From Tuberibacillus sp. Marseille-P3662 (lineage in GTDB: Bacteria; Bacillota; Bacilli; Bacillales; Sporolactobacillaceae), in the NCBI RefSeq assembly GCF_900178005.1, contig NZ_FXBS01000006.1, positions 1,459,585-1,523,584 of the forward strand: a stretch of DNA of 64,000 bases. Direction: 5' to 3'. The translations under genes were made by a program, and so were the position numbers. A model generated the notes under the pieces. That model did not search any database, was not told the origin of the DNA, and saw nothing but the letters and a program-made list of their open reading frames with translations. Positions 23,789 to 30,101 of this stretch are shown here, piece by piece. The stretch's first letter is position 1; the number at the start of each line of letters is the position of its first letter.

Positions 23789-25708
23789 CTATTGAATAAT
23801 AGCTTGTTTCAATTGACTTAAATACAACAGTCGTATAAATAAAAAATAAACCACTTGAACTAGAATAAACGCGCCTAAGACCCATATAGTTGGCCAAGTT
23901 ACGGAAAGATTAAATAGACTTTGTAACGCATTAAAAGCAAATACACTGTGAATAACAGCGACAACAATCGGAACAAAGAACAACAACGCGATTTGCGTCG
24001 TGACAATCCGATTCAACTCTTTTTCTGTCAAACCAATCCTCGAAAGTGCCCTGTATTGTTGTTTATCGCTTTCTAAGTCCATTAACAGCCGGAAATATAG
24101 GAAACTGCCTGCTGCGATGAAAAAGACCGCTCCCACTAAAATTCCGATAAACAACATCACGCTATATATTTGCACCGTCTCAGCATACTTTTGACCGCTT
24201 ACTGAGAATTTATAAGTGTTTTGGCCTGTATAAACCGAATTATCTTTATCAAGTTCGCTAGCGATACCCTCGGTTGTCTTCCAATCATCCACTTCATAGC
24301 CAATGTAGGTCGCGCCAGCGTAGTGACTTGGATGATCGGAGTCCTTCACTGAAAGGGATTGAAACACCTGATCGGGAATCACAATAACATTTGAACCAAC
24401 AGCAAACTTATAAAAAATTTGGTTCGCAGCACCCGTGATGGTTAATTGTTGATCACTTGGCTGTAACGTCACGGTTTGATGATCCCGTTTGACCAGTCCT
24501 TCTTGTTGTTCAAGTGACACCGGAATAAATTTGGCTTCGTGATCACCCAGAGTAAGCTTTGAATAACCCAACGTTTTCGCAAAACGATTATAGTCTTGCT
24601 CGGATACAAGTGTCACGTTGTGATGTGTTTGTGCACTTCTCTGTGTCTTCACGGTCAAGCTAACCTTCTTATAGGATAAATCTTTAGCCTGTATATCTTG
24701 TTCTATGACATTAAGATGTTGCTTCATCGAGTCATCGCCATCAAGTGAAACATAACTGACACCAAACGGGTATTCAACAGCCATCTTGTCATCCAATTTC
24801 GTCATTGATGCAATTGAACCAACCGCACAGAATGCGACCGTGGTGACAATCGTTACAAAGAAAAACATCCGTGCGTTGTCCTTCATTTTATAAGTCAAAT
24901 GACTTAAGGTAATCATGTGGGTTTTCTCCATATAAAAGGATCGCTTCCGTTTGAGCATACGAATCACAAATACGCTTAGCTGTGAGAACAAAAAATAGGT
25001 CGCGATAATCGTTAATGGAACAACCGTCATAATCCTGTTTTCCAACATGTAACTGCCTTTGGTTGTTACAGACAGATAATATGCGATGATAAGGGCAACA
25101 ACCGTTAAGATCGAGACAATCAAGGAGGCTCTCGGTTCTTTCTTTGGCTTTGTACTACCTTGCAGTAGATTAATAACTTTGCGTTTGCGAATCAATAGTG
25201 GCGTCAGTAATGAAATCACCAAAAATAAACCAATAAACGCACCCAATGTTAAAACAAGCGGTTGCCAAGAAAGATAAAATGGCAGGTTAATCCCCATGAC
25301 ATTAGCACCGATCATTAAGAACAATTTAGCAAAGACTAAACCAACGCCAATTCCAACAACAACCGCCGTTAAACCAATCAACATATTTTCAAAAAACACG
25401 AGACGATTCAGTTGTCCGCGCGTCATTCCATGCATCATCAACACACCGAATTCATGATGCCTTGTTTTCAAAAAGATGCCTACCGAGTAAAGGATAAATA
25501 AGAACGAAAAGACATAAATGATATATTCAGCGGCCGTCATCCCTTTTAGTGCCACAGGTCTGATCGTTCCTTCACCTATGCCTGGATGAAAAATGAACAG
25601 CGCGTAGACAAAAAATACCATAACAGAGAGGGCACTACTTAGAAAGTATGCAGCATACGTGCGTTTATTTCGGAGTACATTATTGATCGCGAAGCGCCGA
25701 AAGGTCAT
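23789..25708 (-). CDS. bceB: BceB-type ABC permease (antimicrobial peptide detoxification)
   Basis: A 639-residue permease of the FtsX/BceB type with about ten transmembrane helices and a large extracellular domain between helices 7 and 8 (about residues 315-515) that in known BceB proteins recognises peptide-lipid complexes. The start MTFRRFAINNVLRNKRTYAAYF is typical. It overlaps the bceA stop by 4 nt. With BceA it would shield lipid II-cycle intermediates from bacitracin-like peptides and also signal to the BceS kinase. The exact drug cannot be told from sequence. Confidence 0.9.
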   Translation of the reverse strand: MTFRRFAINNVLRNKRTYAAYFLSSALSVMVFFVYALFIFHPGIGEGTIRPVALKGMTAAEYIIYVFSFLFILYSVGIFLKTRHHEFGVLMMHGMTRGQLNRLVFFENMLIGLTAVVVGIGVGLVFAKLFLMIGANVMGINLPFYLSWQPLVLTLGAFIGLFLVISLLTPLLIRKRKVINLLQGSTKPKKEPRASLIVSILTVVALIIAYYLSVTTKGSYMLENRIMTVVPLTIIATYFLFSQLSVFVIRMLKRKRSFYMEKTHMITLSHLTYKMKDNARMFFFVTIVTTVAFCAVGSIASMTKLDDKMAVEYPFGVSYVSLDGDDSMKQHLNVIEQDIQAKDLSYKKVSLTVKTQRSAQTHHNVTLVSEQDYNRFAKTLGYSKLTLGDHEAKFIPVSLEQQEGLVKRDHQTVTLQPSDQQLTITGAANQIFYKFAVGSNVIVIPDQVFQSLSVKDSDHPSHYAGATYIGYEVDDWKTTEGIASELDKDNSVYTGQNTYKFSVSGQKYAETVQIYSVMLFIGILVGAVFFIAAGSFLYFRLLMDLESDKQQYRALSRIGLTEKELNRIVTTQIALLFFVPIVVAVIHSVFAFNALQSLFNLSVTWPTIWVLGAFILVQVVYFLFIRLLYLSQLKQAIIQ

Positions 25709-26451
25709 GGATGGATCTCCCCTCCTAAGAGCAACAACATGTCCAAAATCCGTTGGTGATACGTCTTCCGATTACCGCCGCGTTCAATTTCGTTATACAA
25801 TGCCCCGTCCTTAATGAAAATGACTCTGTCACAATAGCTTGCAACCTGAGGATCATGCGTGACCATCATAATGGTTGCATCATCATTCTTATTAATAGAC
25901 GTTAAATTTTCCATAACTTCCTTGGAAGATTTTGAGTCCAAATTCCCCGTTGGTTCGTCAGCCAGAAGCAGCTTAGGTGAATGAATCATTGCCCGGGCAA
26001 TAGCTGTCCGCTGTGCTTGTCCACCGGAAATCTCATAAGTTCGTTTATCTAAAATCGCCTCAATGCCCAGCCGTTGAGCCATGTGAGTGACCTTATCATT
26101 CATCTCGTTCACATCCACACCTTCAAGCGTTAAAGGTAAAACAATATTCTCTTTAACAGTCAATGTATCGAGTAAATTAAAATCTTGAAACACGAAACCC
26201 AGCTCACGTCGCCGAAATTTGGCCAAATCATTCTTTTTTAAACGATAAGGGTGCTCCTCATCAATCAGAACTTCCCCTGATGACGGCCGGTCGATCGTTG
26301 CGATCATATTAAGCAGCGTCGTTTTCCCGCTTCCAGATGGTCCCATAACCCCGACAAACTCACCTGCTTCGATATAAAAGCTGACATGATCCAACGCCTG
26401 ATTGGAAACTTGACCTTGATATACTTTCGTTAGCTGATGAACGTTCAACAT
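25705..26451 (-). CDS. bceA: BceA-type ABC ATPase
   Basis: A 248-residue MacB/LolD-type ATPase paired with BceB. Walker A is GPSGSGKTT near 38, the Q-loop FQDFNLL near 87, the signature ISGGQAQR near 140 and Walker B LLLADEPTGNLD near 160. ATG 26451 has GGAGG 8 nt upstream. A palindromic BceR-type operator ends 78 nt upstream of the start, so bceAB forms a separate induced unit behind bceRS. Confidence 0.92.
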   Translation of the reverse strand: MLNVHQLTKVYQGQVSNQALDHVSFYIEAGEFVGVMGPSGSGKTTLLNMIATIDRPSSGEVLIDEEHPYRLKKNDLAKFRRRELGFVFQDFNLLDTLTVKENIVLPLTLEGVDVNEMNDKVTHMAQRLGIEAILDKRTYEISGGQAQRTAIARAMIHSPKLLLADEPTGNLDSKSSKEVMENLTSINKNDDATIMMVTHDPQVASYCDRVIFIKDGALYNEIERGGNRKTYHQRILDMLLLLGGEIHP

Positions 26452-26528
26452 TCGTTTGTCCTCCTTCATCTTTCAATAATCAGTTTACAAGGTAAGAAAC
26501 TCGCGAACGATCGAATCAGCTTTCATGA

Positions 26529-26546
26529 CCTTACACGTTTGTAAGG
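26529..26546. promoter_or_regulatory. BceR-type operator upstream of bceAB
   Basis: CCTTACA-CGTT-TGTAAGG is a perfect inverted repeat. It fits the published BceR-like consensus TNACA-N4-TGTAA and abuts the bceS stop codon, 78 nt upstream of bceA. Confidence 0.85.
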
Positions 26547-27536
26547 TTATAATGACGCATGATGCATCAAAATCGTAACCGTCGTCCCTTGGTCAACTTC
26601 CGAAGTGAGCTTCACTTCATGATTGAGCCGGTCACAAATTTCTTCAACCATATAAAGGCCCATACCTGTCGATGCTTGGTGCCTCCGTCCATTCTCACCC
26701 GTGTAAAAGGATCGAAATACCCTTTGCTGATCTTCTTTCGGAATACCAATGCCTTCATCAATGACTTCTAAAGCAACATTATGGCTATCACTTTGATAAC
26801 CTCTTATAGTCACCTTTGTCCCTGATCCTGATGCGTACTTTACCGCATTTGTGACCAGTTGATTAAGGACAAACGGCAGCCACTTTGCGTCAGAAGCAGC
26901 CGTCAAATGCTCAGAAATTTGGATGTCAGGATAGACACGATGACGAATAAAATAGCGTTTATTGTCCGTCACAACATTCTGCGCAACAGCTCTTAGATTG
27001 ACTTTCTCAGCACGAAAATCTTGCCGAAAGTCCTCAAGTCTTGCCACATATAGCGCCATATCCAATCCTTTTGACAGTCGGTCAATTTCTGCCTGAATGT
27101 CACGGCTCCGGTCATCATCTCCCTCCTGTATAATCAGTTCAATCACAGACAAAGGCGTCTTCATTTGATGAATCCATTGATTAACAAATTGATAATAATC
27201 GCGCTGTCGATTGGTTAACTGTTCAAATTGATTTTGATAATATTGATACTGTCGCTGTAATAATTCTTTAACAGCCTGACTAAGGGCACCGCTTGTTTCA
27301 ACGTTAATCGTCTCTTCCAAGTTAGAATCATTCGCCTCAATCCGGTGATAAAATGCCCGGTTTTTTATATACCTAACACCGATAAACACCGCTAATAAAA
27401 ATAGACCTAACCCTGTTGCGTACAAGGCTAGTAAAGGTTGTTGATGGCCGCCGAGCCAATAAACAAGAAATAAGAGAAACAGTTGAACAATATTCAAAAT
27501 CACAAGAGAAACATGCTCTTTGATAAAAAGGACCAT
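26547..27536 (-). CDS. bceS: Intramembrane-sensing histidine kinase (BceS type)
   Basis: A 329-residue kinase with two closely spaced N-terminal helices (about 10-60) and almost no extracellular loop, the hallmark of intramembrane-sensing kinases that read the state of a BceAB transporter. The phosphorylated histidine lies in FVNQWIHQMKTPLSVIELI near 118-136, the N-box in LNQLVTNAVKYASG near 222 and the G-boxes in DEGIGIP and STGMGLYM. ATG 27536 follows AAGGAG and starts 1 nt after the bceR stop. Confidence 0.92.
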   Translation of the reverse strand: MVLFIKEHVSLVILNIVQLFLLFLVYWLGGHQQPLLALYATGLGLFLLAVFIGVRYIKNRAFYHRIEANDSNLEETINVETSGALSQAVKELLQRQYQYYQNQFEQLTNRQRDYYQFVNQWIHQMKTPLSVIELIIQEGDDDRSRDIQAEIDRLSKGLDMALYVARLEDFRQDFRAEKVNLRAVAQNVVTDNKRYFIRHRVYPDIQISEHLTAASDAKWLPFVLNQLVTNAVKYASGSGTKVTIRGYQSDSHNVALEVIDEGIGIPKEDQQRVFRSFYTGENGRRHQASTGMGLYMVEEICDRLNHEVKLTSEVDQGTTVTILMHHASL

Positions 27537-27537
27537 C

Positions 27538-28239
27538 TTAGCGGGCTCCTTTCCAATCTGTCGGCAGCCGGTAACCCTCACCTCTAACGGTTTCAATACC
27601 ATTCTCAATGCCTAGGTCTTTCAATTTTTTTCGCACGCGTGTCACGTTAACATTCAATGTGTTTTCATCAACAAAACTTTCATCATCCCACAGTTTTTCT
27701 AATAAAGAATCACGATTAACCACCTTAGGATACTGCTTCATCAACGCTTCCAGAAGAACGGCCTCTTTTTTAGATAAGCTAACTTCACGACCTTCATAAG
27801 TAGCTTCCATCCGCTCAGGATAAAGCGTTAATCCGGATTGTTCATGAATTCGCTCACCGCCCGCTTGCGCATATTCACCATAGGCCCGCCGTAGCTGACT
27901 ACGAATTTTCGCCATAACAACATCATAGTTAAAAGGTTTCGTGATGTAGTCATCCGCGCCGTGTTCAAGAGCCATCACCTGATCCATTTGCTCAGATCGG
28001 GCGGATATAAATAGAATCGGACACACGGATGTCTTCCGAATTTGCCGGCACCAATAATAGCCATCGAACTTTGGTAAGTTGACATCCAGTAGTACGAGCT
28101 GTGGTTCGATCCGTTCAAAAATAGCCATTACATCATTAAAGTTATCTGCTACTTCAGCCTGATAACCATATTTCTCAAGATATCCTTCTAACAGTTCTGC
28201 CAATTTAGCATCATCTTCAACAATGAGGATGGCCGTCAC
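27538..28239 (-). CDS. bceR: OmpR-family response regulator (BceR type)
   Basis: A 233-residue regulator. The receiver domain has ILIVEDD at 4-10, phosphoacceptor Asp in LVLLDVNLP near 52 and conserved Lys in DDYITKPF near 101; an OmpR winged helix occupies about 130-230 (NTLNVNVTRVRKKL). GTG 28239 is preferred, with GAGGAG 8 nt upstream; a GTG three codons earlier overlaps that SD. It likely activates bceAB, and probably the neighbouring C39 peptidase gene, through TTACA-N4-TGTAA sites. Confidence 0.92.
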   Translation of the reverse strand: MTAILIVEDDAKLAELLEGYLEKYGYQAEVADNFNDVMAIFERIEPQLVLLDVNLPKFDGYYWCRQIRKTSVCPILFISARSEQMDQVMALEHGADDYITKPFNYDVVMAKIRSQLRRAYGEYAQAGGERIHEQSGLTLYPERMEATYEGREVSLSKKEAVLLEALMKQYPKVVNRDSLLEKLWDDESFVDENTLNVNVTRVRKKLKDLGIENGIETVRGEGYRLPTDWKGAR

Positions 28240-28342
28240 ATGAAACACTCCTCTAAATTTTTCAATTCCTTTTATAGTAATAACGAATTGATGATATCGG
28301 TTTGTTCAAAGTTAACTTTTCTGATTAAAAAGAGAAATAAAA

Positions 28343-28371
28343 CATAAAAAAAGCCAGAGACACGTCCGGCT
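28343..28371 (-). terminator. Terminator after the C39-like peptidase gene
   Basis: On the minus strand AGCCGGA and TCTGGCT pair (one G-U) around a 6-nt loop, followed by seven T residues. Confidence 0.75.
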
Positions 28372-28402
28372 GTTTAAGTCCCCCTTTTTAATATAGCTTC
28401 TG

Positions 28403-29083
28403 TCATTGGTTAATAACAATCGCTTGTCTCCCCATTTGAATCCATGCCTTCTCAAAGTTGGATCGGTCCACTCTTTGATTCTTCTTCCCATAAGGATTAT
28501 TGATCCATACATACTGATCACTATAGCCCGTCATTACAACACTGTGTACGCTGAATGTGATTTTGACTTTTCCTTGAGGGGTCTGCCACGTTTGCATATT
28601 ATTAACAGGTGCAAATTGTGTGGTTGTAATCACCCAAACAGGTATACCTTGATCAATTTTTTGATAGACTTGGGATATGTTACTGCCTGTTAAGTCTTCC
28701 ACCCGATCATCCGCATACCGTCTTGCTAGTTGTACAAGCGGTCCATGATAGACCGATAATCCCGGCCCCTCCGCCATATCGCCGACAAATCCTTCATTAG
28801 GATTCCCCTTTAGCCCATTTTCATAAGTTAACGGCACCTTAGGTATTTTTTGATTCAATTCATTTTTGGTTACATGAATACCTGCGTCCTGTAAAATCAT
28901 GGCCAAACTTGAGACTTCACACCCATTGTATAGACGCGGTTCTGCCATCTGGTTGATAAGCGGAACATTAAGGGGGTCAGCTTCCGGTGTCTTTTCGGGT
29001 TGATCAACTAAAATTTTATATAATTGAATCACAAAGAGACCTACAATAACAACGATCATGATCTTAAATACAGCTTTAAACAA
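28403..29083 (-). CDS. Membrane-anchored C39-like cysteine peptidase
   Basis: A 226-residue protein with an N-terminal transmembrane anchor (about 7-25) and an extracytoplasmic C39-like (peptidase_C39_2, YvpB-like) domain. The triad candidates are visible: Cys55 in YNGCEVSSLAM, His180 in FSVHSVVMTGY and Asn196 in INNPYG. It has no ABC transporter fused, unlike bacteriocin-processing C39 proteins, so it acts as a free-standing surface enzyme. TTG start, 6 nt after GGAGGGG. It is monocistronic with its own terminator, directly upstream of bceR, and carries a BceR-like operator 83 nt ahead of its start. Confidence 0.85.
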   Translation of the reverse strand: MFKAVFKIMIVVIVGLFVIQLYKILVDQPEKTPEADPLNVPLINQMAEPRLYNGCEVSSLAMILQDAGIHVTKNELNQKIPKVPLTYENGLKGNPNEGFVGDMAEGPGLSVYHGPLVQLARRYADDRVEDLTGSNISQVYQKIDQGIPVWVITTTQFAPVNNMQTWQTPQGKVKITFSVHSVVMTGYSDQYVWINNPYGKKNQRVDRSNFEKAWIQMGRQAIVINQ

Positions 29084-29165
29084 TGAATTCCCCTCCTAGC
29101 AATCCCTTTTCATTATCAGCATAGAAGAATCCCTTTTTATAAACTATTGAAAATCATTTCAACAA

Positions 29166-29181
29166 CTTACATTGTTGTAAG
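29166..29181. promoter_or_regulatory. Second BceR-type operator, upstream of the C39-like peptidase
   Basis: CTTACA-TTGT-TGTAAG is a perfect 6+4+6 inverted repeat fitting TNACA-N4-TGTAA. It lies 83 nt from the peptidase start codon, almost the spacing seen at bceA (78 nt), and 95 nt before the divergent aldo/keto reductase. TTGAAA/TTGTTG and TATAAA boxes follow it on the minus strand. Confidence 0.7.
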
Positions 29182-29276
29182 ATCAGTGATGGCCCGACAC
29201 CAAAAAGCAAATCAATTGCAATTTTAGGAAAGCGTGTGCAATCATAAAAATACACTCTTACACTGGAGGCGATCAT

Positions 29277-30101
29277 TTGTCTAGTATACCGACAACAACA
29301 CTACATAATGGGGTCAAGATGCCGCAATTTGGCCTTGGTGTCTGGAAGATGAGCAATGATGACGAGGTGACCACCGCTGTCAAAGCAGCGCTGGATGCTG
29401 GTTATACGGCGATCGACACGGCCGCTATCTACAAAAATGAAGAAGGGGCCGGCCAAGCCATCAAAGACAGTGGAGTCCGCAGAGAGGACATTTTTCTAAC
29501 ATCTAAGGTTTGGAATGATGACCAAGGCTATGAATCAACCTTAAAAGCTTATGAGGCCAGCCTTGAACGTCTAGGTGTCAACTACTTAGATCTCTACCTT
29601 ATCCATTGGCCGGGCGTTAACAAGTACAAGGATACTTGGCGGGCCTTGGAAAAACTGTACAATGACGGCCGCGTTCGCGCCATTGGTGTCAGCAACTTTC
29701 ACATTCACCACCTAGAAGAATTGAAGAAAGATGCCACCATCAAACCAATGGTCAACCAAGTCGAGTTCCACCCATTACTTGTCCAAGAGGACCTGCGTGC
29801 TTATTGCCGAAAGCAAGACATCCAAATGGAAGCGTGGAGCCCGCTTGCTCAGGGTCAACTGTTAGACAATCCTACACTTAAGGAAATTGGCGACAAATAC
29901 GGCAAATCACCGGCACAAGTCATCATTCGCTGGGATCTTCAACACGGTGTCGTCACGATTCCGAAGTCATCAACACCTAAGCGGATTGCCCAGAACAAAG
30001 ATGTGTTTGACTTTGAATTGACAGAAGAAGAAATCAAAGCCATTGATAGCCTGAACAAAAATGAGCGCATGGGTTCCGACCCTGATGATTTTAAGTTCTA
30101 A
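29277..30101 (+). CDS. Aldo/keto reductase (YvgN/YtbE-type)
   Basis: A 274-residue NADPH-dependent aldo/keto reductase of the AKR5-like group. The catalytic tetrad is visible as Asp47 (AIDTAAIY), Tyr52, Lys77 (TSKVW) and His110 (LIHWPG); the NADPH motif [13 protein letters not shown] lies near 228. It reduces aldehydes such as methylglyoxal in known relatives. The start is TTG with GGAGGC 6 nt upstream. It is monocistronic, with a strong terminator. Confidence 0.92.

Follow-up and report, generated by a model that had tools for sequence, protein, structure and literature searches.

In a 64,000-nucleotide (nt) stretch of the Tuberibacillus sp. Marseille-P3662 genome (contig NZ_FXBS01000006.1, positions 1,459,585 to 1,523,584; hereafter the window), a gene for a C39-like peptidase, referred to here as C39, adjoins a bce locus, the order on the minus strand being C39, bceR, bceS, bceA, bceB. 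The locus unites a response regulator, a histidine kinase, an ATPase and an FtsX-type permease, the same four genes as in relatives, and a BceR-type operator lies directly upstream of bceA, which identifies a BceRSAB-type module. The bceR product is 56–69% identical (best segments) to the BceR proteins of 40 relatives’ bce loci. Searches of the genome returned one BceB-like protein and one close BceR, the next response regulators being at most 39% identical; of 18 kinase candidates, 7 were scored, and a single one was BceS-like at E ≤ 1e-30. Since there is a single set of BceB, BceS and BceR, the two promoters described below most likely respond to this BceR. In Bacillus subtilis, BceRSAB has the gene order bceR–bceS–operator–bceA–bceB, with a TNACAN4TGTAA site before bceA. 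The window locus shares this order and site, but differs in that a second BceR-type promoter is predicted to drive a peptidase gene upstream of bceRS.

The original prediction had placed BceR-type sites at 26529–26546, ahead of bceA, and at 29166–29181, ahead of C39. Reading of the sequence confirmed both placements, the bceA-side site being CCTTACACGTTTGTAAGG and the C39-side site CTTACATTGTTGTAAG. They had been described as perfect palindromes, which holds for the arms and not for the central four bases, non-palindromic at both sites. The distance of about 78 nt given for bceA is obtained if the gene starts at the ATG at 26451, as sequence reading and aligned relatives suggest; the listed open reading frame (ORF) begins at 26469, and the ATG appears to be the likelier start. 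Within the window, TNACAN4TGTAA hits just these two sites, so the claim that there is no third copy stands; the four strand matches compare with a shuffle mean of 0.68, and four or more were reached in 2 of 100 shuffles. Across the whole genome, this 14-mer has 28 strand matches, and three sites carry the palindromic form TTACAN4TGTAA. The 3,675,915-base genome contains exactly two copies of the 16-mer CTTACAN4TGTAAG, both in the window and 2.6 kilobases (kb) apart; base composition alone would lead one to expect 0.35 copies in the genome and 1.9e-5 within 200 nt ahead of any one chosen gene. The third genomic palindrome (L009 2945–2958; G000:C6:1238944–1238957) was set aside as a further target, being without the flanking C/G and located between genes read as topA and xerC. 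One-mismatch 16-mers at three places were judged to be chance matches, two lying inside long open frames and one between genes read as aroC and trpD.

Conservation of the operator was assessed in 40 loci taken from among the higher-ranking BceS matches (not strictly the top 40) in a search of 299 genomes of the order. Because a TTACA-type palindrome was found directly upstream of a bceA in all 40, it is, on sequence evidence, the operator conserved among bce loci of this class. The bceA concerned is the partner of the query-matching BceS in 39 loci and another bceA of the same locus in L150; in L165–L167, one arm reads TGTCA instead of TGTAA. Alignment of these promoters revealed two additional blocks: counted from where the main site begins, TGAAAG/TGTAAG lies at +20 and a CGATRGT-like block at +32. 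The resulting second element, TGAAA…CRATNGT, stands at a fixed distance and is common to 37 bceA promoters of other genomes; its TGWAA block follows a 6-nt spacer at 37 of the 41 sites in these loci, unlike at the other four. In 35 of the 37 promoters, the top -10-like match, alone or tied, is a hexamer at +58 or +59. This composite structure agrees with the BceR promoter model that Fang and co-workers reportedly put forward in 2016, in which a linker joins the main site to a second site.

In the window, the bceA promoter shows TGAAAG at +19, CGATCGT at +31 and TAAACT at +57, and the C39 promoter TGAAAT at +19, CAATAGT at +31 and TATGCT at +57. The two elements of the C39 promoter are thus spaced by 5 nt, as in the genome’s own bceA promoter, compared with 6 nt in other bceA promoters. 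To avoid tuning, a matrix was trained without this genome, on the 37 promoters from elsewhere alone; it scored the bceA promoter at 46.8 and the C39 promoter at 41.8, the next best score outside these two being 13.0 among 1,623,456 positions. By element, the C39 promoter reaches 25.7 for the main site (training mean 24.8) and 16.1 for the second element (mean 20.8, lowest 6.7); the latter is weaker than average yet within the training range, and a random position would yield such a match with a probability of 1.7e-5, taking the best of four spacers. A composite pattern, written wide enough to take in the C39 promoter, was also scanned over 397 genomes of the order. It gave 44 matches in 42 genomes, exactly two of them in the window genome, and none for the reversed control. 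The other 42 matches all have the 6-nt spacer; bceA follows directly in 41 cases and a DUF1093 gene in one. The composite promoter, together with the one BceB and the one close BceR of the genome, strongly supports the earlier assignment of C39 to the BceRS regulon, and direct control of the gene by BceR is very probable.

Table 1. Features of the C39–bce locus (window positions) and PAP2-family genes of related loci (positions within the named locus).
Feature	Position	Strand	Basis
bceB, FtsX-type permease	23789..25708	-	ORF, Pfam; sole BceB-like match in genome
bceA, ATP-binding protein; probable start ATG 26451	25705..26469	-	ORF, Pfam, relatives’ loci
Likely -10 hexamer TAAACT, bceA promoter; joint best with GATTAT six bases on	26482..26487	-	Hexamer scoring
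Second element, bceA promoter: TGAAA + CGATCGT, 5-nt spacer	26507..26525	-	Alignment, pattern, matrix
Main BceR-type operator (predicted), bceA promoter, CCTTACA-N4-TGTAAGG	26529..26546	.	Motif scans, matrix
bceS, histidine kinase ORF; probable ATG 27536	26547..27608	-	ORF, Pfam, genome search
bceR, OmpR-type response regulator	27538..28248	-	ORF, Pfam, relatives’ bce loci
Terminator-like hairpin between C39 and bceR	28352..28371	-	Hairpin scan; weak alone
C39-like (Peptidase_C39_2) peptidase gene, predicted membrane-anchored product, 226 amino acids (aa), TTG start	28403..29083	-	ORF, PF13529, fold
Possible -10 hexamer TATGCT, C39 promoter; same position as bceA TAAACT	29118..29123	-	Hexamer scoring
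Second element, C39 promoter: TGAAA 29161-29157, CAATAGT 29149-29143, 5-nt spacer	29143..29161	-	Alignment, pattern, matrix
Main BceR-type operator (predicted), C39 promoter, CTTACA-N4-TGTAAG	29166..29181	.	Motif scans, matrix
Divergent aldo/keto reductase gene, intergenic region in common with C39 operator	29277..30101	+	ORF, Pfam
PAP2-family gene behind BceR-type site	L137 9768-10322		Locus scan
PAP2-family gene behind BceR-type site	L141 5674-6273		Locus scan
PAP2-family gene behind BceR-type site, later start assumed	L143 8878-9558		Locus scan

The second element in both promoters, the hairpin between C39 and bceR and the divergent region in common with the aldo/keto reductase gene were absent from the original prediction (Table 1). 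Three hairpins were found in the scanned stretch, compared with 2.0 in shuffles, and the one between C39 and bceR has a T run. The C39 composite promoter faces away from the aldo/keto reductase gene. The two divergent genes have a common regulatory region (29181–29277), and BceR might act on the reductase gene too.

The TTG start of C39 is preceded by AGGAGGGG. Its product matches PF13529 (E = 2.8e-37) and PF03412 only in Pfam, and is thus not an S41 serine protease of the kind that characterizes nsr-type operons. A hydrophobic segment at residues 8–26 is followed by the C39-like domain; no lipobox was seen on reading of the sequence, and the Pfam scan detected no wall-binding domain, the C39 domain and the hydrophobic segment standing alone. 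The protein was aligned with 18 relatives out of 56, selected as at least 50% identical and shorter than 300 aa (19 qualified; L060 was left out). Q45, C55 and H180 are invariant across the 19 aligned proteins, and position 196 is Asn or Asp. An AlphaFold2 model (pLDDT 89.6) is close to PDB 3ERV (44% identity, TMt 0.89), a Bacillus anthracis C39-like peptidase of the same fold and family, titled ‘putative’ in PDB and compared here by fold and sequence alone; weaker fold matches are papain-like enzymes, including pseudomurein endoisopeptidase and the peptidase domains of ComA and PCAT1. A domain score above cut-off, Cys/His residues of active-site type and the predicted papain-like fold place the product in Peptidase_C39_2; its relatives are presumably those known as YvpB. 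A second C39-like (PF13529) gene of the genome (L223, G000:C4:485174–485764; 47% identical) lies beside an apparent ATP-binding cassette transporter gene.

The place of C39 directly upstream of bceRS is taken in 3 of the 40 bce loci (L137, L141 and L143) by a PAP2-family gene preceded by a second main site. These genes appear BcrC-like on reading of the sequence, BcrC being what we take to be the name of their relatives. The composite scores of their promoters (main site plus second element) are 26.4+19.5 in L141, 16.3+7.7 in L137 and 19.9+5.3 in L143, where the longest frame spans the site and a later start was assumed. Across the wider class, the composite pattern was listed at 60 places, 2 in this genome, 4 of the order and 54 in other orders; 45 of these 54 were examined and 9 left out. 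At 13 of the 45, it precedes a sigma-factor-like gene with bceR at most 0.7 kb downstream on the same strand (L240–L249, L268–L270). Four more places precede other genes, and ten are without a frame of at least 60 aa within 400 nt. A further 14 places show a sigma-factor-like gene and no bceR in the short flank (L227–L233, L235–L239 and L250; L224 is doubtful). Membership of the sigma-factor family was checked with Pfam in three proteins (L242, L232 and L268, two of them among the 13) and is otherwise assigned by sequence likeness.

Other genes also lie behind related sites. A composite promoter precedes a DUF1093 gene, presumably YxeA-like, with no bce match in 6 kb (L216 1029–1505), and the composite pattern stands before a gene resembling a penicillin-binding transglycosylase (L265 3056–4041). 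A main site without second element precedes a major facilitator superfamily transporter gene downstream of bceB (L160 2665–4178), and weaker extra palindromes occur in other bce loci, e.g., L153.

The combination of antibiotic removal and cleavage, which the original prediction had regarded as undescribed, has a precedent. As described for the nsr operon of Streptococcus agalactiae, nisin loses its last six residues to the membrane-anchored S41 protease NSR, and NsrFP is a transporter of the BceAB type; the two-component system NsrRK controls both, and protease and pump each confer nisin resistance (PMC4773095, PMC5786555, PMC8003753). As in that operon, a Bce-type transporter and a two-component system stand here beside a membrane-anchored protease, the anchor being predicted from sequence; NSR, however, is an S41 serine protease, whereas the gene in the window encodes a C39-like peptidase of papain fold and has a BceR-type promoter to itself. 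Because of this precedent, removal plus cleavage is not new, while the enzyme class and its promoter appear new within the open-licence literature searched. In that literature, no function was found for this C39 clade, and BceR, a C39 peptidase and bacitracin were not found together. A related site, AnnTTACnAnnnnGTnAG, occurs in the PsdR/ApsR regulons of Lacticaseibacillus paracasei, where the ApsR-regulated promoters include those of mprF and dltA, which are not peptidase genes, unlike C39 (PMC10858260). A putative BceR box before dlt is mentioned in another report (PMC7438565).

We propose that one peptide-sensing BceRS/BceAB module drives two promoters, that of bceAB and that of a recruited C39 gene. 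The BceAB–BceS complex would detect a cell-wall-active peptide antibiotic, and phosphorylated BceR would bind the main palindrome and then the second element next to the promoter, switching on both genes. BceAB would release the lipid target, and the membrane-anchored, outward-facing peptidase would most likely cut and inactivate that peptide, or one related to it, at the surface of the membrane, in the part taken by NSR in the nsr operon. The promoter architecture, the single Bce module, the hydrophobic N-terminal segment and the catalytic-type residues support the proposal at the level of sequence; binding, induction, topology, substrate and contribution to resistance are inferred. The experimentally tested nsr precedent and the PAP2-family genes behind BceR-type sites in the same slot of 3 of the 40 loci also speak for it. 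Given BceR control, the chances that C39 cleaves the antibiotic are somewhat better than even. The reading as a whole, in which BceRS/BceAB controls bceAB and a recruited surface C39-like peptidase that cuts the inducing or a related peptide, is one we favor slightly. A broader version is more tentative and somewhat less than an even bet: a papain-fold C39-like peptidase recruited behind a full BceR-type promoter may inactivate the peptide antibiotic outside the cell, resembling NSR with an unrelated protease class, and the slot upstream of bceRS may act as a plug-in for exchangeable genes (C39 peptidase, BcrC-like phosphatase, sigma-factor-like).

Several observations weigh against this interpretation. 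bceRSAB was found beside a C39 relative in none of 59 loci, within flanks of up to 7 kb that were far shorter in some (3 kb in all for L054); these loci gave no BceB match, and several contain distant regulator, kinase or ATPase matches at 23–34% identity (e.g., L055, L064, L082, L091, L096). Conversely, none of the 40 bce loci, spanning 11–16 kb, has a C39 match at E ≤ 1e-5. The original prediction had called for a search for the operator ahead of C39 in orthologous loci, naming its absence there as a refutation, and the outcome was negative: no site with up to two mismatches lies in the 600 nt before the match in any of 29 orthologues of the order, nor in the 160 nt before the chosen start in the 25 closest by identity of the 59 relatives. 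The 29 were examined with flanks of about 1.5 kb, the window’s own locus being the thirtieth of that sample, and three of their genomes overlap the 59. As regards the promoter, the composite pattern, unlike the matrix, was drawn up with the C39 promoter in view; the matrix was run over the window and 56 C39-bearing loci, on both strands, the whole-genome scan having been made by pattern only. The 5-nt spacer is not unique either, being also the best fit for the PAP2 promoters of L137 and L141, and simple scoring ranks GATAAT at +63, six bases past TATGCT, above all other -10 candidates of the C39 promoter. In other orders, the pattern mostly precedes other genes, bceA following at only 4 of the 45 places; as an exclusive mark of bceA it therefore holds in the order (41 of 42) and fails in the class.

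The 29 orthologous C39 loci likewise showed no bce gene within their short flanks, and the C39–bce link therefore appears local to this genome rather than false; in the samples examined, which contained no other genome of the same genus, the arrangement is confined to this genome. A C39 match at E ≤ 1e-60 is present in 31 of the 397 genomes of the order, the window genome included, and the best E-values in 25 other genomes of the host’s family are just 6.7e-45 to 8.3e-55. Since family members have only these more distant matches, the C39 gene may have been acquired from elsewhere.

The most serious alternative, though unlikely to be the right one, is that C39 is a true BceR target with the cell wall or surface proteins as its substrate, in repair or remodelling after antibiotic damage. 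Among seven relatives scanned, L061 (61% identical) carries PG_binding_1 and L093 (42%) CW_binding_2, a further point against cleavage of the antibiotic, from which some members of the family probably act at the cell wall; the pseudomurein endoisopeptidase among the fold neighbors, at low similarity, and the PAP2-family gene in the same slot of three bce loci point the same way. Set against this are the lack of a wall-binding domain in the window protein and a search of the open-licence literature that gave no clade member with a known wall substrate. We consider it improbable that the promoter serves mainly positive autoregulation, with read-through from C39 into bceRS raising the level of the sensor and C39 as a passenger. 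Such a role would suit the location of C39, immediately ahead of bceRS and in the same orientation, and the PAP2 or sigma-factor-like genes that in relatives likewise stand between a BceR-type promoter and bceRS, but a terminator-like hairpin parts C39 from bceR, and the peptidase retains its hydrophobic segment and catalytic-type residues.

Very unlikely is a role of C39 in tuning the signal, e.g., by trimming the inducing peptide or the extracellular part of BceB and thereby switching the response off: co-regulation and the predicted outward-facing topology would allow it, but the literature searched offers no such case, and the lack of a nearby C39 gene in the 40 other bce loci means that such modules persist without one. 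Least credible of all is that the palindrome before C39 is a chance match or the site of another regulator, as the 0 of 29 orthologues and the further OmpR-type regulators of the genome might suggest, given that the composite promoter is complete and has the same spacer as the genome’s own bceA, and given the expectation for the 16-mer.

If the proposed control and cleavage of the peptide by C39 are correct, a second protease class would take part in peptide-antibiotic defence under Bce control, and C39-like surface peptidases, for which the literature searched offers no function, would gain a testable one. The composite promoter signature could then be used to find further Bce targets, and the exchangeable slot upstream of bceRS would be a simple place to seek new peptide-resistance genes.

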